Positions 27,033 through 38,570 of a stretch of DNA of 42,822 nucleotides are shown here, one piece after another. Both the position numbers and the translations under genes were made by a program. The notes beneath the pieces are model-generated. The model did not search any database. It saw only the letters and a program-made list of their open reading frames with translations, and was not told the origin of the DNA. Origin of the DNA: Anaerolineales bacterium (GTDB lineage: Bacteria; Chloroflexota; Anaerolineae; Anaerolineales; Villigracilaceae); the NCBI GenBank assembly GCA_030680795.1, contig JAUXUL010000022.1, forward strand, positions 1 through 42,822. The letters run 5' to 3'. How positions within the stretch are numbered: the stretch's first letter is position 1; every line of letters begins with the position of its first letter.

Positions 27033-27833
27033 TTAACTTTGTCGCACAGAATAACTCTGTAATTCATCAGGTGACAATTCATCGGGTTTCACAAGCCTAT
27101 AGTGCTTTTCAGAAGATATCTTGATTCCATCTTTTGTCTGCTCAAATTCGAAAAGCGCAATAAGGTTATCTTCCATAAATTGCGCGGCAATTGCTCTGGA
27201 AATCAAGCGCGGAAATTTCAACGCACATAATTCAAAATCCTGTTCAATTTGCACAATGCCAATTTTGTCTTTCCCGCCTTTTGCTTGAATAGGTAAAACA
27301 TAATGCGCGCCGCGTTTATCCAGTCCGATATAAATTTCATCGGTTTCGACTTGCGAGCCGTCACTTAAAGTTGTTCGCAAATGGTTTTGCAAAGAATAGC
27401 AAGTTAGGCCAGTGAAAATATCAACCAAACGATTGTAGCGAAGTTTTGCCAACAGGGACTGTTCATCACTCATCGAATACTTTGCAATGACCCCGGGCGT
27501 TGAGTCAGGGATCTTCGTTTCTACCAAAATACTCGAAGGTAGTATGGTAGATTGTGTTACAACGGCAAATTTGTATTTTCCTTTGCCCGCTGGTCTAATA
27601 ATCCATTCATAGCCTTTCGGGGCTTTTGATGTAATGGACTTTGGTAAAAGTGTTCTGTATCTGAATGAGTAAAGAACATCGCCTAAATTCTTCGGCAGAA
27701 TAATTCCCATTTTATCCGCGGCCTGGCTGATTTCTGTTCGCTCAAACTCAATTTCAGTCATGCCTTTCTTGAAGTGCTTTGCAAAAATAGCCTCAAGAAT
27801 TTTGGTATAGCGGTTTGGCTCTTTATTTTCCAT
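27033..27833 (-). CDS. Probable type II restriction endonuclease (PD-(D/E)XK-like)
   Basis: A 266-residue protein not matched to a named enzyme. A likely nuclease core lies at about 163-190: ETDEIYIGLDKRGAHYVLPIQAKGG, where Asp165 or Glu166 and Gln183-x-Lys185 fit a D-x(n)-(D/E/Q)xK active site. It follows the DNA methyltransferase stop by 3 nt on the same strand, so the two form one operon and the pairing supports a restriction role. The N-terminal ~90 residues could bind DNA. The recognition site is unknown. The locus looks more AT-rich than its neighbours, suggesting transfer. Confidence 0.65.
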   Translation of the reverse strand: MENKEPNRYTKILEAIFAKHFKKGMTEIEFERTEISQAADKMGIILPKNLGDVLYSFRYRTLLPKSITSKAPKGYEWIIRPAGKGKYKFAVVTQSTILPSSILVETKIPDSTPGVIAKYSMSDEQSLLAKLRYNRLVDIFTGLTCYSLQNHLRTTLSDGSQVETDEIYIGLDKRGAHYVLPIQAKGGKDKIGIVQIEQDFELCALKFPRLISRAIAAQFMEDNLIALFEFEQTKDGIKISSEKHYRLVKPDELSPDELQSYSVRQS

Positions 27834-27836
27834 CAG

Positions 27837-29189
27837 TTACCCTCTCCATTTCAAAATGACGACTTCTTCGCGCAATTGTTCTTTTGTAGCCGTCGACAGT
27901 CGAGTACGGAATAAATCGATACCTACAAGTTCATAGCCTAATTTTTTGGCAATATCTCCCAAAATCTGACCTGTCCTGATCATCACGCGCAAATAGGATG
28001 CTTGGTCGCCGACCACATACGCGAGTTGTGCGTCTGGGCGCAGGACTTTGCGAAGTTCTGATAAATGTTTTGCCATGCCGCCGAAATATAATTTTGCGGC
28101 TCGCGCATAAAGTTTTTCAAATCCAGAATCTTTTCCAAGCTCGATTCGGCGTTTTTCAATTTCATCTGCAATGCGTTGAATTTCTGGAAAATCAGAAACC
28201 CATTGATCGTCATCATCACCTTTGTAAATTCCGCGCGTATTCGAACGGACGAGCCGTTTTTTTAATTCTCTCAATTCTTCCTTGCTGTTGATAAATCCAA
28301 GCAAAACAGACTCGAGGCGTGTAGTTCGAGTGTAATCTTTTTCGTTGGGATAGGGCGGTGACGTAATAACTGCATCCACAGAATTTGGTTCAATAATGTC
28401 AAAACTGCGTGCATCTGCCAGATGAACTTTTGTGTCGGGATAGGATTTCCCTTCAACTTGACGCAGGTCATTTGCTATTTTCTTTATTTCAAAAAGCCAG
28501 TTGGAGATAACAGGTACATCTACTTTTGGATTCTTAACGCCCACTTCTGGTCCGAAGTGTAGATTGCTGATTTTGAAAACCAAGGCGTTCCCTAAAGCTA
28601 ATAGTGCGTGACGACAAAACGGCTCGCCCTCGAATTGTTTTAGGCATTCAAATAAAACCAAGGTTTTGTGCAATGGAAGTGGACTGATTGAATTTGTCAG
28701 AATGAGTTTTTCAATTTCAGGTGTTAGTGTTTTGAGTTCTAAATTTTTGCTGTGATTAAATGAGAAATTGTCATCAATTCCCTGTGACTTAAGAATCGCA
28801 AGCGCTTTTTCTGAGACTTGCTGTGCTTGCTTGGATAATTTATCTCCATCCAAATCCCAATTTGTTTTGACCGATGAAGCAAAATGTGGAAATGGATTGC
28901 CTTCCAAGCCAATTGCTTTTATCCCTGCTAGTTTGGCTTCAACCAAAGTTGTGCCTGTCCCGCAAAATGGATCAAGAATCACGCTTTTTTGATTTAGTCC
29001 AAATTTTTGGATGTAATCCTGTACCAAATGTGGAGGAAAGGATAACACGAACCGATACCACGCATGAAAAGCTCGATCTTGAGGATCCAGCTTATTGGCG
29101 CGGCCATTTGAAAGTACAGGTTTCTTGGCTTCCTGAATTTCCTCTGACTCGATAAAACCCATTCTTAATTGGTTTGAAGCAACTGTCAT
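27837..29189 (-). CDS. Site-specific DNA methyltransferase (N4-cytosine/N6-adenine class)
   Basis: A 450-residue amino-methyltransferase. Motif I, DPFCGTGTT, is at 73-81 and motif IV, TSPPYPN, at 276-282; TSPPY is frequent in N4-cytosine enzymes but also found in N6-adenine ones. The FHAWYRF…FPPHLVQDYI part before motif I is motif X-like. The ~190 residues between I and IV may hold target recognition. It probably protects the host from the downstream endonuclease. A TAGAAT at 29197-29202 lies 7 nt before the ATG with no Shine-Dalgarno, so the transcript may be leaderless. Confidence 0.85.
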   Translation of the reverse strand: MTVASNQLRMGFIESEEIQEAKKPVLSNGRANKLDPQDRAFHAWYRFVLSFPPHLVQDYIQKFGLNQKSVILDPFCGTGTTLVEAKLAGIKAIGLEGNPFPHFASSVKTNWDLDGDKLSKQAQQVSEKALAILKSQGIDDNFSFNHSKNLELKTLTPEIEKLILTNSISPLPLHKTLVLFECLKQFEGEPFCRHALLALGNALVFKISNLHFGPEVGVKNPKVDVPVISNWLFEIKKIANDLRQVEGKSYPDTKVHLADARSFDIIEPNSVDAVITSPPYPNEKDYTRTTRLESVLLGFINSKEELRELKKRLVRSNTRGIYKGDDDDQWVSDFPEIQRIADEIEKRRIELGKDSGFEKLYARAAKLYFGGMAKHLSELRKVLRPDAQLAYVVGDQASYLRVMIRTGQILGDIAKKLGYELVGIDLFRTRLSTATKEQLREEVVILKWRG

Positions 29190-30632: not shown

Positions 30633-31694
30633 CTATCTCAATAAAGTGGTGATCAGCCCAATTAAGAATAATCCCAGGGCGGTGTAGCCTGCGACCTGCT
30701 CCGTTGTGAAGATGGAGAAGTGATGCGCATCAAAACTTGCACGGTCTATGCCCGGCGTGATTGGCGTTTCCATTTTTCCCAACAGGGCATCACGGAAATC
30801 AATCACATTCTTGGGGCGGTTATCCGGGTGCAGTGACATGGCCCACAGGATGGCTTTTTCCACGTGACTGCTCAGGTGAGGATTAAGCTCTCGAGGCGGC
30901 ACCAGGCTGCGGGTATCCAGGAAGCGTTTGCGTGCTTCGGCGGGGGGATCATTGGTCAGCAGGTGATAAAGGGTTGCTCCGAATGAAAAAATATCAGCGC
31001 GCGGATCGGTATGCGTATCGTCTCCGCCATATTGTTCCAAAGGTGTGTAATGCGCCGTGCCTTGTCCATGAATGATGGTGATGGTGACTTCATCCGGCGC
31101 CATGATCTTTACCAGGCCAAAATCCACAAGTTTGATCAATCCACTTGGCGTGATCTTCAGATTGCTTGGTTTAATATCACGGTGAATGATGGGCGGGGAT
31201 TGATGATGGAGGTAACTTAAGGAATCCGCAATTTGCACGGCCCAGCGCAGTACTTCTTTTTCCGAGAGGAAGGTTTTGTTACGGCGGGCTTCCTGCATCC
31301 GTTCGCGCAAGTCCCTGCCCGGCACAAAATCCATCACCAGATAATCACGCGGACCTTCGGAGAAGAAATCAGAAACCTTTGGCAGGTTGGGGTGATCGAG
31401 GCGTGCAAGCACAGATGCCTCGCGAAAGAATTGTTCGCGAGCCTGTTTAAAGACATCAATTGGGAGAGCCTGATTGTGCTCGACTTCCTTTAGCGCACAT
31501 AGACGACCTTGCAGGCGGGTATCCTCTGCAAGATAAATACTTCCCGTGCCGCCCTGTCCGATCTGCTCGCGGATCTTGTAGCGGTCACGCAGGGTCTCCC
31601 CATTTCTTAATGATTGGGGCAAATCTTCTCCTTGGTGACATCGTGCCCGAATGGGTAATTCTGATTTTTCAGTGATGTTTTCGGCGTGTATCAC
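30633..31694 (-). CDS. Serine/threonine protein kinase with C-terminal membrane anchor
   Basis: A 353-residue Hanks-type kinase. Gly-rich loop GQGGTGSIY (46-54), Lys69 in CALKEV, Glu92, HRDIKPSN (171-178) and DFG (191-193), followed by GTAHYTPLEQY and DPRADIFSFGATLYHLL. The last ~18 residues are a hydrophobic helix (GYTALGLFLIGLITTLL) with almost nothing outside, so the kinase is held at the inner membrane without a sensor domain. The start is GTG; no alternative exists before the kinase fold. It is divergent from an FHA-domain transcription regulator, a likely phospho-partner. Confidence 0.9.
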   Translation of the reverse strand: MIHAENITEKSELPIRARCHQGEDLPQSLRNGETLRDRYKIREQIGQGGTGSIYLAEDTRLQGRLCALKEVEHNQALPIDVFKQAREQFFREASVLARLDHPNLPKVSDFFSEGPRDYLVMDFVPGRDLRERMQEARRNKTFLSEKEVLRWAVQIADSLSYLHHQSPPIIHRDIKPSNLKITPSGLIKLVDFGLVKIMAPDEVTITIIHGQGTAHYTPLEQYGGDDTHTDPRADIFSFGATLYHLLTNDPPAEARKRFLDTRSLVPPRELNPHLSSHVEKAILWAMSLHPDNRPKNVIDFRDALLGKMETPITPGIDRASFDAHHFSIFTTEQVAGYTALGLFLIGLITTLLR

Positions 31695-32141
31695 TGTTCA
31701 TATTACGGAGTGCCGCTTAAATAGCTACACAAGAATTACGATAGCCTGCACTGAAAAAAGGTCAAGAGCATAACGCAAAGCCGCCAAGATTCAAAGTCGC
31801 AAGGGGATTCTGGGCTATTTGACGGCAAAATTTTCAAGATTTTCAATCCGTATTTCAGAATTTCTTTGCGTCTTTGCGCCTTCGCGTTAAGTATTTGGTT
31901 TTTGCGGTAGACTCATTCAACAAGCGGTAAGAATATGAAATTTGCAATATTGTTATGCACAGAAATCCACTTTTCTGCTATATTATAAACGTCTTTGTTG
32001 GTACTGGGTGCTGTACAGGGTTACCAATTTAAAACTTTAGGTAACTTAAAATTAAGCTATTGTTCCTGGAATTACTCCTTAAGTTTATAGCATAAGAAAA
32101 TTAAACTCAAATTTATAAGCGAAGTATTGTTTGAGGAAATT
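31695..32141. promoter_or_regulatory. Divergent regulatory region between kinase and FHA regulator
   Basis: This 447-nt gap holds the MITE-like repeat and, closer to the FHA gene, an extended -10 candidate TGCTATATT (31976-31984). The long AT-rich leader after it has two possible hairpins, GTACTGGGTGCTGTAC and GTTACC…GGTAAC (about 32001-32045). No gene is seen. Autoregulation by the FHA/winged-helix protein is plausible but not shown. Confidence 0.35.
31769..31893. repeat. MITE-like repeat with AACGCAAAG...CTTTGCG...CGTTAAG ends
   Basis: The left end AACGCAAAGCCGCCAAGA and the right end TCTTTGCGCCTTCGCGTTAAG are imperfect inverted copies with about 80 nt between. It lies in the divergent gap between kinase and FHA genes and has no coding content. 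Confidence 0.55.
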
Positions 32142-32801
32142 ATGGAAAACGAAGAAGAATATGCCATTCTTGTCGCTCAAGACGGCCCATTAAAAGGGCA
32201 GCGCTGGGCACTAAGCCATACATTGATGGTCGGGCGTGACCCCACCTGTGACATCAATGTTCAAGACAGACAAGTCTCGCGTTTTCATGCGCGAATCACG
32301 CCCACGGCGGAGGGTGTCATCATTGAAGATCTTGGCAGTAAAAATGGCACTAACCATAACGGCACCGAAATAACCGCGCCCGTTATGTTGCAGGATGGCG
32401 ACCTGCTCGGCATCTCACTTGCACAGCAGTTTATCTTTCTCACATCAGATGCCACCATGCCGCTTGCAGTAGGCGGATTACGTCCGGGGCGCCTGGTGAT
32501 GGATCGGAAATCACGCCAGGTTTGGGTGAATCAGCAGCAGGTTATGCCGTCATTATCCGCCCAGCAATTTAAATTAATATGGTTGTTATATGAAAAACAA
32601 GGACAGGTGATCAACCGCAGTGACCTGGTCTCTGTTGTTTGGGGTGAGGAGCAAATGGCAGGTGTCTCTGATCAGGCGCTGGATGCCTTGATCCGCCGCC
32701 TGCGAAATAGACTCGCTGTGATTGACCCAAGCCATCAATATATTGACACCGTGCGCGGTCATGGGGTGCGCTTGGACAACCCTCCGATTGGGGAATCATG
32801 A
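32142..32801 (+). CDS. FHA-domain winged-helix transcriptional regulator
   Basis: A 219-residue protein with an N-terminal FHA domain (about 8-100) holding the phosphothreonine-binding residues: Arg32 (VGRDPTC), Ser46 and His49 (QVSRFHA) and Asn68 (GSKNGT). An OmpR/PhoB-type winged helix follows (about 125-215), with LSAQQFKLIWLLYEKQGQVINRSDLV and YIDTVRGHGVRL. This order is the reverse of EmbR. It would bind a phosphorylated partner and DNA. The ATG at 32142 has GAGG about 6 nt upstream; a TTG five codons earlier is less likely. The stop overlaps the PIG-L start by 4 nt. Confidence 0.88.
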   Translation: MENEEEYAILVAQDGPLKGQRWALSHTLMVGRDPTCDINVQDRQVSRFHARITPTAEGVIIEDLGSKNGTNHNGTEITAPVMLQDGDLLGISLAQQFIFLTSDATMPLAVGGLRPGRLVMDRKSRQVWVNQQQVMPSLSAQQFKLIWLLYEKQGQVINRSDLVSVVWGEEQMAGVSDQALDALIRRLRNRLAVIDPSHQYIDTVRGHGVRLDNPPIGES

Positions 32802-33607
32802 GCTCATTTAACCTTCTAGCGGTCTTCGCTCATCCAGATGACGAATCAATGGGTATGGGCGGCACGCTTACAAAATATTCCGCTGAAGGAGTGGATACTC
32901 ACCTCGTCTGCGCTTCACGCGGGGAGAGAGGCTGGGCTGGTCCCGAGGGGCAGGATCCAGGTCCAGAGAGACTCGCCCAAATCCGCACAAAGGAATTGGA
33001 GAACGCAGTTGCACTGCTCGGCCTGAAGAGCCTGTCATTCCTTGATTACATGGATGGCGACATGGACCAGGCGGATCACGCTGAAGCCATTTGCAAGATC
33101 GTCACTCACATTCGTAGAATCCAGCCGCAAGTGGTGGTGACCTTTCCTCCTGATGGAAATTACGGCCACCCCGATCACATCGCCATTGGACAATTCACCT
33201 CTGCCGCCATCGTCTGCGCCGCGGATTCGGCTTACAAAGACTCAAAAAATCTCCCTCCTCACCGTGTTTCAAAACTATATTACATGGTGGATGGCGAGAA
33301 CTTTGTGAATCTCATCGCCCCTTTCATGGGCGATATGACCTTTCCCGTGGACGATCAACTGCGCGGCGAATCCCCTTGGAAGGAATGGATGATCACGACT
33401 CGTATTGATATGACTGAATATTGCGGTGTTGCGTGGAAAGCAATTCAATGCCATAAGAGTCAACTGCCTACATTGGGCGCATTGGCAGAAATGCAGGAAG
33501 ATGCCGCAGTCGCCGTCCTTGCCATGCAAGGGACGTTCTACCGCGTATTTAGTTTGGTGAATGGGGGCAGGAAAGTGGAGACGGGTTTGTTTGAGGGGTT
33601 GAGATAG
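32798..33607 (+). CDS. PIG-L family (LmbE-like) deacetylase
   Basis: A 269-residue zinc-dependent N-acetylglucosaminyl-type deacetylase. The metal motif AHPDDE is at 11-16 (His12, Asp15) and the third ligand set is in YGHPDHIAI. Members deacetylate GlcNAc-inositol, GlcNAc-malate (bacillithiol BshB), or related sugars. The SRGERGW segment and GPERLAQIRTKEL match the broad family. Its ATG overlaps the FHA-regulator stop, so it is probably a target or partner of that regulator. Confidence 0.9.
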   Translation: MSSFNLLAVFAHPDDESMGMGGTLTKYSAEGVDTHLVCASRGERGWAGPEGQDPGPERLAQIRTKELENAVALLGLKSLSFLDYMDGDMDQADHAEAICKIVTHIRRIQPQVVVTFPPDGNYGHPDHIAIGQFTSAAIVCAADSAYKDSKNLPPHRVSKLYYMVDGENFVNLIAPFMGDMTFPVDDQLRGESPWKEWMITTRIDMTEYCGVAWKAIQCHKSQLPTLGALAEMQEDAAVAVLAMQGTFYRVFSLVNGGRKVETGLFEGLR

Positions 33608-33611
33608 AATA

Positions 33612-33663
33612 AAGTGACAGTCATCTTTATCTGCAGGGTGCTACACAAAGGTGACTGTCACTT
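33612..33663. repeat. AAGTGACAGTCA hairpin, copy 1
   Basis: Arms AAGTGACAGTCATCTTT and AAAGGTGACTGTCACTT pair over 17 bp with one G-T and an 18-nt loop. Copy 2 lies at 38719-38751. It sits between the convergent deacetylase and CpXC genes and may act as a terminator. Confidence 0.8.
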
Positions 33664-33670
33664 GGTTTCT

Positions 33671-35026
33671 CTATCCCATATTCTTCTTCATCGAATACTT
33701 CAAAGCCACTTTATAAATTTCGCTCAATTTCCCTGCCATGGCTTTGGCTTCGGGATTATCTCCCTGGGCCTCCATTTGGGCGACCAATCCGCTTAAGGCT
33801 TCCATAAATTGCTGGTTGATCAGCGCGTCGTTTTCGCTGAGCATCTTTTCGATGCCTGCTTTATCTGGCGCCTGGAGCAGTTGTTCAATGAATGCCACTT
33901 CGGGCGTCGGCGCGCTGGCGGCTTGCAGCACCTGCACCATCTTTTGCAGTTTGCCCATGCGGGTGTAATCGTTCTTGTCGGAAGCCTGTCTCAGCAATTG
34001 ATTGACCACCTCAACTGCATCCTGTGAAAAGCCTTCCAGATTTTCCTGCGTGGCTTTTTCAATATCATCCTGTTCGAGCAAAGACTCAACGAATTTCTGG
34101 GCCTGTTTTAAGCGCGCTTCGAGCTGTTTATCGGCTTCATTGGTGAAGAAAAGCAATTTCTCGCGGATGCCTTCCAGCCTTGTTTTTTCTTCAGCAGAAG
34201 TTTTCTCGATCTTCTCTGTCAAATTTTGGAAGAAGACATAATCTATGCCAGCGCGCGCCAGCGAGACATAAGCGCGAAGGCGCGCATCAGTTTTAGCCTC
34301 TAGGATGAAATCCAATAATTTTTCGCGGGTCAGGCCTTGTCCCGCCTCTTGCAGGACCTTTTGGACTGCTTCGAGTTCTCCGACAGATTCCTTCAACTGA
34401 CGGCCGTACTCGGTCTCTTCCAATAACTGGGTTTGGATCTCGATCATGGCGCGGGCGATCGGTTCCTGTCGGCTCTGCATGGCGTTCTGTGCAATGCGGC
34501 TAAAGAGCGCGAAGAACTGTTCGTCAATGATCTTTGTGTTTTGTTTGATCAATTCAGAACGCACATCCTTCGATGTGATCTGCATCAGCTTCTCCATGAA
34601 CTGGACTCGTTCCTGTTGTCCCTTGATCATTTCGGGCGTGATGCCATCCTTTCCCAAAATGGTCTCCAGCATGGATTCATAAGTGAGGTTGGCTCGCGGA
34701 CTGAGTAAATAACCCTTGCGTTTTTCGGGAGGCAGCCTGTCCATCACCTGCTTGATGAGCGGACCGATCATCTTTTCCTGCTCATTTAATGGCAGGGCTA
34801 ATTCCGGCGGGAAGAAGGTCAGCAGTAATTCTTTGTCGTTATCGTGATAGACAATAGGTGTGGCAAGGCGGCCTTCATATCCGCAAAATTGACAGCGGGC
34901 AAAGTTGGACTGTCCGCTCAACAGGCGTTGTTTGGAAGCAGGCTCATACGTCGTGTCGAATAACTGCTCGACGTTGGCAGGGATCATTTGTCTACAGCGG
35001 GGACATGCGATTGAGGTTTGAGGCAT
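33671..35026 (-). CDS. CpXC-domain protein with long helical region
   Basis: A 451-residue protein of unknown function. The N-terminus is a CpXC zinc ribbon: Cys8-x2-Cys11 (ACPRCR) and Cys45-x2-Cys48 (RCQFCGYEG), followed by about 60 residues ending YHDNDKELLLTFFPPEL. From about 115 on the chain is rich in Glu, Gln, Lys and Leu and predicted helical, with possible coiled coils and many QxxxxE repeats. There is no signal peptide or membrane helix. CpXC domains occur in Firmicutes and Chloroflexota; no biochemical role is known to me. It stands alone between repeats. Confidence 0.7.
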   Translation of the reverse strand: MPQTSIACPRCRQMIPANVEQLFDTTYEPASKQRLLSGQSNFARCQFCGYEGRLATPIVYHDNDKELLLTFFPPELALPLNEQEKMIGPLIKQVMDRLPPEKRKGYLLSPRANLTYESMLETILGKDGITPEMIKGQQERVQFMEKLMQITSKDVRSELIKQNTKIIDEQFFALFSRIAQNAMQSRQEPIARAMIEIQTQLLEETEYGRQLKESVGELEAVQKVLQEAGQGLTREKLLDFILEAKTDARLRAYVSLARAGIDYVFFQNLTEKIEKTSAEEKTRLEGIREKLLFFTNEADKQLEARLKQAQKFVESLLEQDDIEKATQENLEGFSQDAVEVVNQLLRQASDKNDYTRMGKLQKMVQVLQAASAPTPEVAFIEQLLQAPDKAGIEKMLSENDALINQQFMEALSGLVAQMEAQGDNPEAKAMAGKLSEIYKVALKYSMKKNMG

Positions 35027-35055
35027 TTAATGATTTCCGATTTCTGATTTATTAT

Positions 35056-35094
35056 GTCATTGCGAGGGCAGAAGTACACTGCCCTCGCAATGAC
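35056..35094. repeat. Dispersed inverted repeat (GTCATTGCGAGG family), minimal copy
   Basis: GTCATTGCGAGGGCAG and CTGCCCTCGCAATGAC form a perfect 16-bp stem with a 7-nt loop. It lies between CpXC and PepF-type genes. Confidence 0.85.
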
Positions 35095-35105
35095 TGGATA
35101 GCAAA

Positions 35106-36914
35106 TTACCCTACAAGTTCTTCCAGCCGATCAATGTAACTTTCCATCAAGGCGAAGGTCTCTTCGACGGGTTTGGGTGTGGTCAGGTCTACCCCTGCTT
35201 TCTTGAGCACGTCCAGCGGATAGGCAGACGAACCCGCTTTGAGGAAGCCCAGATAATTTTCCACGGCGCTGGGTTCGCCGCGCAGGATCTTGCCTGAAAG
35301 AGCGTGTGCCCCTGAAATACCGGTGGCGTATTGATAAACGTAATAATCCGAAAAGAGATGGCCGAAAGTAGACCAGACCATGCCAACGCGTGGACGATCC
35401 ATTTTCACCTTGGGACCAAATCCCTCGGCGAACAGATCAGCCATCAGATTTTGCATTGAATCGGCTGTCAGAGGTTCGCCACTTTCCACGCGCTGGTGAG
35501 TCTCCAGCTCAAAGCGTGCCAGGGTCGGCATCTGGAAGAAATACCTAAAGAAATTTCCGCCGACGGCTTCTTCGATCAAGGCGATCAGGAAGTTCTTGTC
35601 GGTGATGGTCTTGAGCAAATGACCGCGCAGCATGGCCTGATTGAAATTCGAAGCGACCTCTGCTACGAAGAGCGAATAACTTGAATATGCCAGCGGTTGG
35701 TTTTTCCAGGTGAGATACGAGTGCATGGAATGACCGAGTTCATGCGCCAGTGTGCTCATGCTTCCGACTTCATCTGTGTAGGACATCATGATGAATGGAT
35801 ATGTGCCAGGTGCGCCGTATGAAAATGCGCCATTGGATTTTCCCTTGTTGGGGTATATATCCACCCAACGTTCCTGAAGACAGCCCTTGCGAAGCGCATC
35901 CACATATTCCCTGCCGAGTGGGGCCAGGCTTTCACAGATCAGGTCAACCGCTTTTTCAAAAGAAACCTTTGGCTTTTTCTTCGTGATGGGAGCCCACATA
36001 TCATAGTAGGTGACTTCTTTCAACTTCAAAGCCTTACGACGCATCTCGAAATACCTGTGCCAGACGGGCAGATTCTTTTTGAAGGTGTTGATCAGGTTTT
36101 GGAACACATCCACCGGGATGTTATTGTTGAAAAGAGATGCTTCCAGTGTGGAATTGTGTTCCCTGGCCCGCATCATAAAGACATTGTTCTTGATGGAAGT
36201 TGAAAGATTGGTGGCCAGCGTATTCTTGAACTCAATGTGCTTGTCCATGTAGCTTTCAAACGCGCTTTGCCTTACTTTACGGTCGGTATCTTCCATGAGG
36301 GTGTTGTGGAAATTCCCCTGCGTCACTTCCAGCTTTTTGCCTTTGCTGTCTTTGACGGGCGCAAACTTGAAATCGGCATTGACCAGCATACTGGTGCTGT
36401 TATCTGCGCCGCCCATTGGGTCTGCCAGCCTGCCGAGCAGTTCCTCCACCTCGCTGGAACGGACATGTTCCTGCTGGCGGAAGAGGTCCCGCATGCTTTG
36501 GCGGTAAACACTCAAATTCTCGTTTTTGTTCATCCAGTCATCCAGCACAGCCTTGCCAATTTGAAGCAGTTCAGGGTTGATGAAGGAAACCGCGCCAGCC
36601 ACTTGGCCGTACATGCCCTGCGCTTTTCCGAACATGGCGGTGGCTTTTTGGTCGGTGGTATCCACGTTATATGAAAACGCCGCGTACATAAAAACATGCA
36701 TCACGCGCTTCATCAATGCTTCCATGCTTTGCATGGCCTCGAGCAGGGTCTCCGGCGAAGTTCCCAGATTGCCCTGATATTTTTGTACATTAGGGAGGTC
36801 TTTCAAAATACTTTGTAATTCGACATCCCATTCCTTGGGGGATTTAAAGACACTTTCAGCGTTCCATGTGTATTTTTTTTCTATCTTATTGCGGCGAGGG
36901 ATTGTTTTGCCCAT
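35106..36914 (-). CDS. pepF: M3-family oligoendopeptidase F (PepF)
   Basis: A 602-residue zinc metallopeptidase of family M3. The zinc site is STLAHELGHSMHSYL (HExxH) about two-thirds along, followed some 25 residues later by the third-ligand FVAEVASNFNQ. It cleaves short peptides in the cytosol; no signal peptide is present. Length and order match PepF (about 600 residues). AAGGA lies 8 nt before the ATG. Two hairpins (36958-36978 and 36985-37002) lie upstream, between this gene and the histidine kinase. Confidence 0.93.
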   Translation of the reverse strand: MGKTIPRRNKIEKKYTWNAESVFKSPKEWDVELQSILKDLPNVQKYQGNLGTSPETLLEAMQSMEALMKRVMHVFMYAAFSYNVDTTDQKATAMFGKAQGMYGQVAGAVSFINPELLQIGKAVLDDWMNKNENLSVYRQSMRDLFRQQEHVRSSEVEELLGRLADPMGGADNSTSMLVNADFKFAPVKDSKGKKLEVTQGNFHNTLMEDTDRKVRQSAFESYMDKHIEFKNTLATNLSTSIKNNVFMMRAREHNSTLEASLFNNNIPVDVFQNLINTFKKNLPVWHRYFEMRRKALKLKEVTYYDMWAPITKKKPKVSFEKAVDLICESLAPLGREYVDALRKGCLQERWVDIYPNKGKSNGAFSYGAPGTYPFIMMSYTDEVGSMSTLAHELGHSMHSYLTWKNQPLAYSSYSLFVAEVASNFNQAMLRGHLLKTITDKNFLIALIEEAVGGNFFRYFFQMPTLARFELETHQRVESGEPLTADSMQNLMADLFAEGFGPKVKMDRPRVGMVWSTFGHLFSDYYVYQYATGISGAHALSGKILRGEPSAVENYLGFLKAGSSAYPLDVLKKAGVDLTTPKPVEETFALMESYIDRLEELVG

Positions 36915-36956
36915 GATATAATCCTTGTGTTGGTTTGCGGGTTGATTTTACCATTT

Positions 36957-37002
36957 GGAGTGCGGGAGCTTGCTCCCGCTTTTGCAACGGCTTGCCGTTG
37001 CA
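36957..37002. terminator. Tandem hairpins downstream of the histidine kinase gene
   Basis: AGCGGGAGCAAGCTCCCGC and GCAACGGCAAGCCGTTGC (minus strand) are two perfect short hairpins in a row, 9 nt past the kinase stop. No long T-run is seen, so they may be a weak terminator or a REP pair. Confidence 0.5.
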
Positions 37003-37010
37003 ATCCAGAT

Positions 37011-38570
37011 TTAACGTGGAAGCGAGAAACAGATCCTCGCGCCACGGCGAAGACCGCCGTCAGGCTTCGGATCAGTCCAGATGCGCCCGCCGTGAGCTTC
37101 CACAATGGCGCGCGCTAAGTACAGTCCAAGCCCCGCGCCTTTGGTCTGCTTCGCGGCGTTTGTCGAACGGTAGAAACGATCAAAAATATGCGGGATATCT
37201 TTGGCTTCGATGCCAGGTCCCTCGTCACTGACGCAAACAACCACCTGTTCGGGGTGCAGCGTGCCGCTGATTTTTATCTCGCCTTCAGAGGCGTACTTCA
37301 ACGCATTCGATACCAGGTTTGAAATGACCTGCTCCAAACGATTTTCATCACCGAGGATGAATGGAAAGTTTGATGGGAAATCGGTAACGAGGCGATGCTT
37401 TGGGGATTGCGGCGCAAAACGCTCGGTCACTCTTAACGCCAGGCTGGGCAGGGCGACATCGGCATGGTTCAAGCTCAGACCTCCGGCCTGCAGCCGCGAG
37501 GCATCCAGCAGATCATCGATCATCTTGGACAAGCGATCTGCTTCCTCTTCGATCACCGCCAGGGAATCGCTGATGGTGTGCTTGTCCCATTTTGCATCGT
37601 CGCGCCGAAGTGTGGATGCGTATCCTTTGATCAAGGCAACCGGCGTACGCAGTTCGTGGCTGACAATCGAAATGAAGGTTGCCTTTAGTTGATCTGCGGT
37701 TCTGAAGTGGGTAATATCACGCACACTCACGATCACATTGCGAAGTTTGCCTTCTTCAGAAAGCAGCGGTGCGTAGGTGATGCCCACTGGAAGCGGCGGC
37801 GGAAGCGGGCGTTCAAGATCGCCTTCCACATACAGGCTTGCATTGGGTGTCAGCGGCCAGCCATCTGCAACGGATTCTTCCAGCGTTCGCCCGTGCGGCT
37901 CCTTCTTCCATTGAACGATCTCGTTATGGGATTTGCCTGTGACCTGCTCGTGTGTTTGGCCGAAGAATTTTTCAAAGGCTTCGTTGCATCGTTCAATATT
38001 AAGGTTCGAGTCGAGTATGAGAATGCCGTCTGCGGCGGAATCGAGCAGCGCATCGAGACGTTTCTTTTCGTAGGAGACCTGCCCATAAAGCTGGGCGTTG
38101 AAGACTGCAATGGCGGCCTGATCTGCAAAGGATTGCAGGAGCACACGGTCGTTTGGGGTGAACAGGTCTGCATAATTGCGGAAGATAAAGATCACGCCGA
38201 TGACCTGTCCATGTGCGGCCAGGGGCAGACCGGTACCGTTGAGCAAGCCTGTGCTGGCGGTGTAGGTCAATTCCTTTAACATGCGGTTGAGTTCCCGTAC
38301 ATCCAGTTCGCGCACAACTTCATCTGCAAGTAAAGGGGTGAGATAACTCAAGAAAGCAGGCGCGATATTATGTGCGGCAGATACGCGCCAGCCGTCGGGT
38401 TGTTTGAGCGCGATCAACCCTGCCTGCCCTGCCAGCATTTCAACTGAGACAAGTAATATGCGCGCCAGCAATTTCTCAAGATCTAATTCCTGAGTAAGCA
38501 TGCGCGAGATTTCAAGCAAATAGTCTCGTTGACGGACACGGAAGTCGGGGAGTATGTAGGAAGTGAGCAT
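37011..38570 (-). CDS. Sensor histidine kinase with GAF and PAS domains
   Basis: A 519-residue soluble histidine kinase. Order: GAF-like domain (about 15-165, with LLARILLVSVEMLAGQAGLIAL), PAS (about 175-290, with GILILDSNLNIERCNEAFEKFFG), HisKA with phosphoacceptor His in IVSHELRTPVALIKG, then HATPase with NLVSNALKYA (N), DEGPGIE (G1), FDRFYRS (F) and GAGLGLYLARAIVEAHGG (G2). No membrane helix is present, so it senses a cytosolic signal. No response regulator is adjacent. The start lacks a clear ribosome site. Confidence 0.92.
   Translation of the reverse strand: MLTSYILPDFRVRQRDYLLEISRMLTQELDLEKLLARILLVSVEMLAGQAGLIALKQPDGWRVSAAHNIAPAFLSYLTPLLADEVVRELDVRELNRMLKELTYTASTGLLNGTGLPLAAHGQVIGVIFIFRNYADLFTPNDRVLLQSFADQAAIAVFNAQLYGQVSYEKKRLDALLDSAADGILILDSNLNIERCNEAFEKFFGQTHEQVTGKSHNEIVQWKKEPHGRTLEESVADGWPLTPNASLYVEGDLERPLPPPLPVGITYAPLLSEEGKLRNVIVSVRDITHFRTADQLKATFISIVSHELRTPVALIKGYASTLRRDDAKWDKHTISDSLAVIEEEADRLSKMIDDLLDASRLQAGGLSLNHADVALPSLALRVTERFAPQSPKHRLVTDFPSNFPFILGDENRLEQVISNLVSNALKYASEGEIKISGTLHPEQVVVCVSDEGPGIEAKDIPHIFDRFYRSTNAAKQTKGAGLGLYLARAIVEAHGGRIWTDPKPDGGLRRGARICFSLPR

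Follow-up and report, generated by a model that had tools for sequence, protein, structure and literature searches.

The 42,822-nucleotide stretch of Anaerolineales DNA analyzed here, called the window throughout, forms one contig in a draft genome of 3.45 Mb. Within it, a gene for a Ser/Thr protein kinase (K, minus strand) stands divergently to a gene for a regulator (F, plus strand) that joins an FHA domain to an OmpR-type winged helix, and a gene for a PIG-L family deacetylase (P, plus strand) lies behind F; the list of open reading frames (ORFs) and the Pfam matches agree on this layout, as a reading made from the letters alone (the sequence-only reading) had proposed. The conserved unit is the K-F pair, not the three genes. 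We put at roughly 0.58 the probability that K is the cognate kinase of the regulator F, the two forming a Ser/Thr version of two-component logic in which phosphorylated Thr105 of F is read by an FHA domain.

We infer that K phosphorylates F and that binding of the phosphothreonine by FHA controls DNA binding. In the proposed mechanism, K would be held at the membrane by its C-terminal tail and autophosphorylate, and would then phosphorylate Thr105 in a flexible linker behind the FHA domain (D-A-T-x-P-L). A second F molecule would bind the phosphothreonine through its own FHA domain, giving a dimer, or less probably the FHA domain of the same molecule would do so; an FHA domain can bind a phosphothreonine elsewhere on its own protein (PMC4601284, drawn on here and below in excerpt). 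Replacing a receiver domain, the FHA domain would control the pairing of the winged helices on DNA, where F would act probably at the promoter region shared with K and at targets elsewhere. The dose of K would additionally be set by an RNA hairpin in the K leader.

The pairing of K with F is widely kept. Sixty-two loci were mapped, and with five paralogue loci (L064, L066-L069) set aside there were 33 same-genus loci and 24 from other families. K is divergent from F in 32 of the 33 same-genus loci; the remaining one, L072, starts 394 bases before F and is without the K side. For the DNA on the K side, the window and the 32 same-genus loci other than L072 make up 33 same-genus rows. In other families K is directly divergent in 21 of 24 loci, the exceptions being L043, with K about 2.7 kb off, L044, where none was seen, and L057, at a contig end. 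A second set of named Anaerolineales loci, the best 80 of 552 confirmed F matches, shares genomes with the first; K is divergent in 77 of these; of the three left, two (L146 and L187) sit where a contig ends, and in L207 no K was seen. F-bearing records include Anaerolineales bacterium, Chloroflexi bacterium OLB14 and Candidatus Villigracilaceae bacterium (Chloroflexota, Anaerolineae, Anaerolineales). Of 61 genomes, 60 gave F matches at E≤1e-10, some through FHA only. The survey of F extended across Chloroflexota: in the phylum sample, 80 of 301 genomes had F at E≤1e-25, as did 37 of 38 same-class genomes among those listed by kinship, a list outside which the 201 matchless genomes stand. A divergent kinase was present at 20 of 40 further loci: at 6 of the 14 that belong to the class and at 14 of the 26 that do not. 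Synteny, domains and conservation thus support the earlier proposal of a dedicated pair of kinase and FHA regulator.

F (32142..32801, plus strand; first called as 32127-32801 with its ATG at 32142) encodes 219 amino acids. Pfam places FHA at residues 30-91 (1.4e-19) and Trans_reg_C at residues 137-210 (4.2e-16), the latter making F an OmpR-type winged-helix protein; no receiver domain matched, and FHA occupies its place. The phosphothreonine-binding residues that the sequence-only reading had called complete are invariant or nearly so: Arg32 in 57 of 58 aligned F proteins and 79 of 80 named loci, and Ser46, His49 and Asn68 each in 58/58 and 80/80. EmbR runs from DNA-binding domain through BTA to FHA (PMC4601284); F, as had also been noted, has the opposite order, FHA first and DNA-binding second, with no BTA match at E 0.01. 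An AlphaFold2 model of F built on 54 sequences had a mean predicted local distance difference test (pLDDT) score of 84.6 and a predicted template-modelling score of 0.49, with the first strand beginning at residue 9. Its closest FHA fold was GarA/OdhI, also the best FHA sequence match in PDB, and the best 50 matches listed by the fold search were known FHA-domain structures. In one genome only (G017 C2; L041, L202), the reading frame of F breaks in two near residue 30, perhaps through a sequencing error.

The candidate phosphosite lies just behind the FHA domain, at T105-M-P-L108 (32454..32465, plus strand). Thr105 is present in 58 of 58 aligned F proteins, in 80 of 80 named loci and in 39 of 40 distant loci (L273 has Arg). 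Pro107 was likewise found in 58/58 and 80/80, and Leu108 in 57/58 and 79/80. Residues 104-113 have pLDDT below 50 in the model, a stretch that we read as a flexible linker; because of these low values, packing does not explain the invariance of Thr105. Leu or Ile at +3 suits FHA recognition of phosphothreonine. At PknA-dependent sites of M. tuberculosis, acidic residues upstream of Thr, Pro at +2 and Leu or Val at +3 are enriched (PMC7164672, in excerpt). The S-D-A-T-M-P-L of F fits this pattern, with its acidic residue at -2, a position not named in the excerpted text. Five paralogue linkers were attempted, and all three that could be read also have a threonine behind FHA. At a separate locus (G000:C1:31602-32323; L284, L285) two FHA genes adjoin, and in one of them the FHA domain is followed by D-T-A-P-L, which shares T-x-P-L with F.

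K is a Hanks-type kinase (Pkinase 5.9e-40, 137.8 bits in Pfam) of 329 amino acids. Its catalytic residues H147, R148, D149 and N154 (HRD...N) and D167, F168 and G169 (DFG) are invariant in 23 K sequences, ten rows with fragmentary K having been left out of the K counts. Against the PASTA-kinase model NF033483 of NCBIfam, K scored 188.5 bits with a cut-off of 450, through the kinase domain only, and so is not placed with the PknB/Stk1 PASTA kinases. By hydropathy, a single C-terminal hydrophobic segment ends within 15 residues of the K terminus in 76 of 77 orthologues, and the only K without it, in L156, is cut by a contig end. Domains and hydropathy therefore bear out the earlier description of K as a membrane-anchored kinase without a sensor, with nothing beyond the tail.

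The gene was first called as 30633-31694, but judging from sequence its start is most likely TTG 31622, not GTG 31694, giving K at 30633..31622 on the minus strand. We place the start there because of a conserved Shine-Dalgarno element and because of upstream stops in relatives. The element, AAGGAGA (31627..31633, minus strand), reads TCTCCT on the plus strand in 32 of the 33 same-genus rows and is absent in L038; TTG 31622, 24 codons inside the ORF originally called, lies just behind it. Among 24 rows with a called start (nine further rows were uncalled), 22 have TTG, L089 has ATG and L095 has GTG. The equivalent of 31623-31694 holds in-frame stops in 24 of 33 rows, and it is because this segment is open in the window that a longer K was called. 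Across the 33 rows, the hairpin loop found upstream of K occurs in all three reading frames. With K starting at 31622, the intergenic region is 31623-32141, not 31695-32141.

Of the alternatives, the one that survives best is docking of the EmbR/PknH type, in which the FHA domain of F binds the autophosphorylated activation loop of K, F is held or phosphorylated at the membrane, and Thr105 is merely a substrate site or a linker feature. The activation loop reads T-x-T-[IV] in 77 of 77 K proteins, a possible phosphothreonine with Ile or Val at +3, and phosphorylation of EmbR by PknH requires the FHA domain of EmbR (PMC4601284). Docking alone, however, leaves unexplained why Thr105 varies no more than the residues of the FHA binding site although its linker is modelled with low confidence, and we consider it unlikely.

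The leader of K contains a hairpin (31670..31696, minus strand) with a 7-bp stem, the arms CAGUGAU and AUCACUG enclosing a loop with ACGCCGA; the minimum free energy in the window is -6.6 kcal/mol (z -4.06). The arms covary. Across the 33 same-genus rows (32 distinct), seven of eight modelled pairs change on both sides, which 10 of 500 shuffles also achieved, and cells with double changes number 36 versus 7.5 in shuffles. The covariation score was 0.472, compared with 0.155 in shuffles (standard deviation 0.020; 0/500) and at most 0.116 when the model was slid, although relatedness inflates such scores. The innermost pair is unpaired in 14 of the 32 distinct rows.

A model of the hairpin, built on these rows, matched significantly and once per genome in 33 of the 37 genomes of the genus; those without a match were G005, G006 and G014, which also lack a full F match, and G033, which has a divergent version. 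Elsewhere in the 61 genomes the only extra matches were at E 0.33 (G003) and 0.51 (G047). The model matched 40 of the 80 named loci at E<0.01. The loop reaches further: ACGCCGA stands in 76 of 77 named leaders (74 exact, two with one base changed; L210 is without it), where shuffles lead one to expect about 1%. Leaders of other genera retain the loop but have different arms, which directly adjoin the F promoter block; the ACGCCGA loop as such was absent from 20 distant leaders. Arms also pair better with their own partners than with those swapped in from other species: -9.51 versus -6.75 kcal/mol in 41 genus-like leaders, -12.63 versus -10.38 in 34 others and -10.92 versus -7.06 in all 75, with 0 of 500 swaps as low in each case. 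In unconstrained folds of the K strand, 57 of 76 leaders show all seven bases of the loop unpaired and enclosed. Rfam 15 gave no match to 31670-31696 at E≤5, and at ten related loci searched at the gathering threshold it returned nothing but a tRNA. The covarying hairpin with its ACGCCGA loop appears to be a new element. A perfect 10-nucleotide inverted repeat (31665-31674 and 31749-31758) also lies in this region of the window, and since its first arm runs into one arm of the hairpin, an alternative pairing is possible in this genome.

We infer that the repeat in the leader acts as RNA. It could instead be a DNA operator, for F or for another protein, as the repeat adjoins the F promoter block. 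The preference for one strand is weak: mean z is -1.48 on the K strand and -0.84 on the F strand, and duplex energies are -10.91 and -10.96. An operator would, however, be expected to keep its arms, whereas here the arms change in a compensating manner and the loop is fixed. In addition, the repeat is located between an A/T core and the Shine-Dalgarno element of K, and therefore is probably in the K leader. On balance we find an operator improbable.

The A/T core belongs to a conserved block at 31956..31984 (plus strand) that is the putative promoter of F, with TGCACA as -35, a 17-nucleotide spacer and TATATT as -10. The core ATTATAAA is present in 31 of the 33 same-genus rows (not in L084 or L095), and a related block occurs in other genera. 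On the minus strand the core reads TATAAT, and K and F may share it as a single core promoter. In the window the core TATATTATA (31979-31987) is readable as a -10 element on both strands. Between the hairpin and this block, 31774-31886 is an imperfect inverted repeat resembling a miniature inverted-repeat transposable element, with copies of CGCAAAGnCGCnAAG exact at 31774 (plus) and 31864 (minus) and with one mismatch at 31872 (minus). It was not seen among the 13 relatives compared, and an exact-seed repeat search did not list it.

Several observations weigh against a cognate K-F pair that signals through Thr105 and an RNA leader. Of the 20 distant F-like proteins that have no divergent kinase beside them, 19 keep Thr105, and Thr105 therefore does not track K. 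Outside the class the Pro/Leu part is mostly altered, to T-x-K-G in 13 of 26 loci and to mixed forms in others, with L244 keeping T-A-P-I. This genome encodes seven other FHA proteins, three of which have T-x-x-[LI] behind FHA, and a post-FHA threonine motif may serve FHA biology in general. Twelve of 14 F-adjacent kinases outside the class exceed K in length, and by hydropathy a large region follows their transmembrane segment (the L244 kinase is short, and that of L270 shows no transmembrane segment); because of these longer kinases, the pairs seen across the phylum may not all be orthologous to one another. F stands without a nearby K in L207 and L044. For the leader, the loop is partly paired in the predicted fold of 19 of 76 leaders, and z falls below -1.5 in 33 of 76 on the K strand and in 20 of 76 on the F strand, so that the strand is weakly indicated. 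Nor did the promoter block lead to a regulon, the copy at this locus being the only one in the genome with three or fewer mismatches. Separately, the idea that the post-FHA threonine is specific to F was weakened by the similar sites in those three of seven FHA proteins.

A further alternative is that K and F are neighbors by history, F being constitutive or ligand-driven and its FHA domain binding other phosphoproteins. F without an adjoining K at L207, L044 and 20 of the 40 distant loci would fit this, as would the seven further kinase matches in the genome besides K. Yet the divergent pairing spans many genera whose outer neighbors vary, and coincidence of this kind seems to us quite improbable. 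We hold to the cognate pair. More tentative, and on present evidence doubtful, is its widest form: an ancient Chloroflexota counterpart of two-component systems, in which FHA serves as receiver, a linker phosphothreonine swapped between two F molecules serves as the phospho-switch, and the amount of a sensorless kinase is set by an ACGCCGA RNA leader that carries the real input.

P (32798..33607, plus strand), for the most part a genus-level neighbor, has no defining part in the K-F system and is a local passenger or target. It belongs to the PIG-L superfamily (1e-36; 126.7 bits against a PF02585 gathering score of 28.2), and in the window its ATG at 32798 overlaps the stop of F (TGA 32799-32801), as the sequence-only reading had seen. 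That reading went on to propose one three-gene unit controlling glycan or thiol-sugar deacetylation, and advised a survey of the neighborhood, which upheld the K-F part (77 of 80 named loci) and not P. Within the genus, P lies behind F at 30 of 33 loci (L038, L090 and L096 are without it), and among the named loci at 38 of 80, one of which, L178, is more distant; in other families it does so at 0 of 24 loci by tblastn at E 1e-6 (0 of 21 readable, as L042, L065 and L070 end right behind F), although the pair persists in 21 of those 24. Moreover, in 27 of 28 loci measured the two genes are separated by an ORF of 157-172 residues, which L075 and the window lack; the one scanned, in L074, is PNPOx-like (44.7 bits), and the others are known by their similar start. 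P scored below the curated NCBIfam cut-offs for MshB, Mca, BshB1 and BshB2 (112.6/224.35, 104.4/277.15, 85.8/182.5 and 84.2/195.25 bits in the MshB/Mca/BshB models) and is not assigned to any of them. A search for BshC found none, and the MshC model gave two matches, both below cut-off, as it did in 13 of 14 control genomes; these are presumably cysteinyl-tRNA synthetases. We therefore rejected a mycothiol or bacillithiol pathway and, with P missing in other families and an ORF between it and F, the conserved three-gene unit, which is very improbable.

Behind F in other families are a convergent CpXC gene (10 of 24 loci) and a histidine kinase like that of the window (8 of 24). Because these recur beside K-F elsewhere, P and an oligopeptidase gene look as if they had been inserted later into a neighborhood that existed before them. 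In the window, 33671-38570 (minus strand) encodes a CpXC protein, oligoendopeptidase F and a GAF-PAS histidine kinase. Between the convergent P and CpXC genes, 33608-33670 holds a terminator-like inverted repeat (agtgacagtca/tgactgtcact) that draws weak Rfam microRNA matches on both strands. Farther away, 27033-29189 (minus strand) is a low-GC stretch of two genes; the second encodes a protein with a TSPPY motif, which we take to be DNA methyltransferase-like and so possibly part of a restriction-modification pair.

By analogy, K-F resembles EmbR/PknH in function and differs from it in architecture. Each has a Ser/Thr kinase together with a transcription factor carrying FHA and OmpR-type DNA-binding domains, which for K-F is seen in the synteny of the genes. 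PknH has an outside sensor region, whereas K is a bare tail-anchored kinase. GarA and OdhI, so close to F in FHA fold and sequence, are not known to have a DNA-binding domain and carry their phosphosite tail before FHA; F, in contrast, has a winged helix and its candidate site follows FHA. Response regulators of the OmpR/PhoB type share the C-terminal winged helix with F but have a receiver domain with a phospho-accepting Asp, for which F has FHA, and a histidine kinase in place of a Ser/Thr kinase. As K-F departs from the architecture of both EmbR/PknH and response regulators, we set it apart from them. PknH is a receptor kinase with a binding cleft, and phosphorylation of EmbR stimulates its promoter binding (PMC4601284). 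EspM of Mycobacterium marinum likewise has an N-terminal FHA domain followed by helix-turn-helix domains, but it has two of these and a helical bundle, and the excerpted text of PMC11005418 mentions no adjacent kinase. In literature found by searches aimed at this architecture and at structured RNAs, the titles and opening parts of abstracts describe neither the K-F pair nor the hairpin.

Bacterial Ser/Thr kinases usually have pleiotropic targets (PMC4601284). A conserved pair of one kinase and one regulator, in which just one candidate phosphothreonine is invariant, is easily testable in vitro and could reveal the direct route from an FHA domain to transcription. The covarying leader repeat, to which no Rfam family corresponds, further suggests that a sensorless kinase is controlled at the RNA level.

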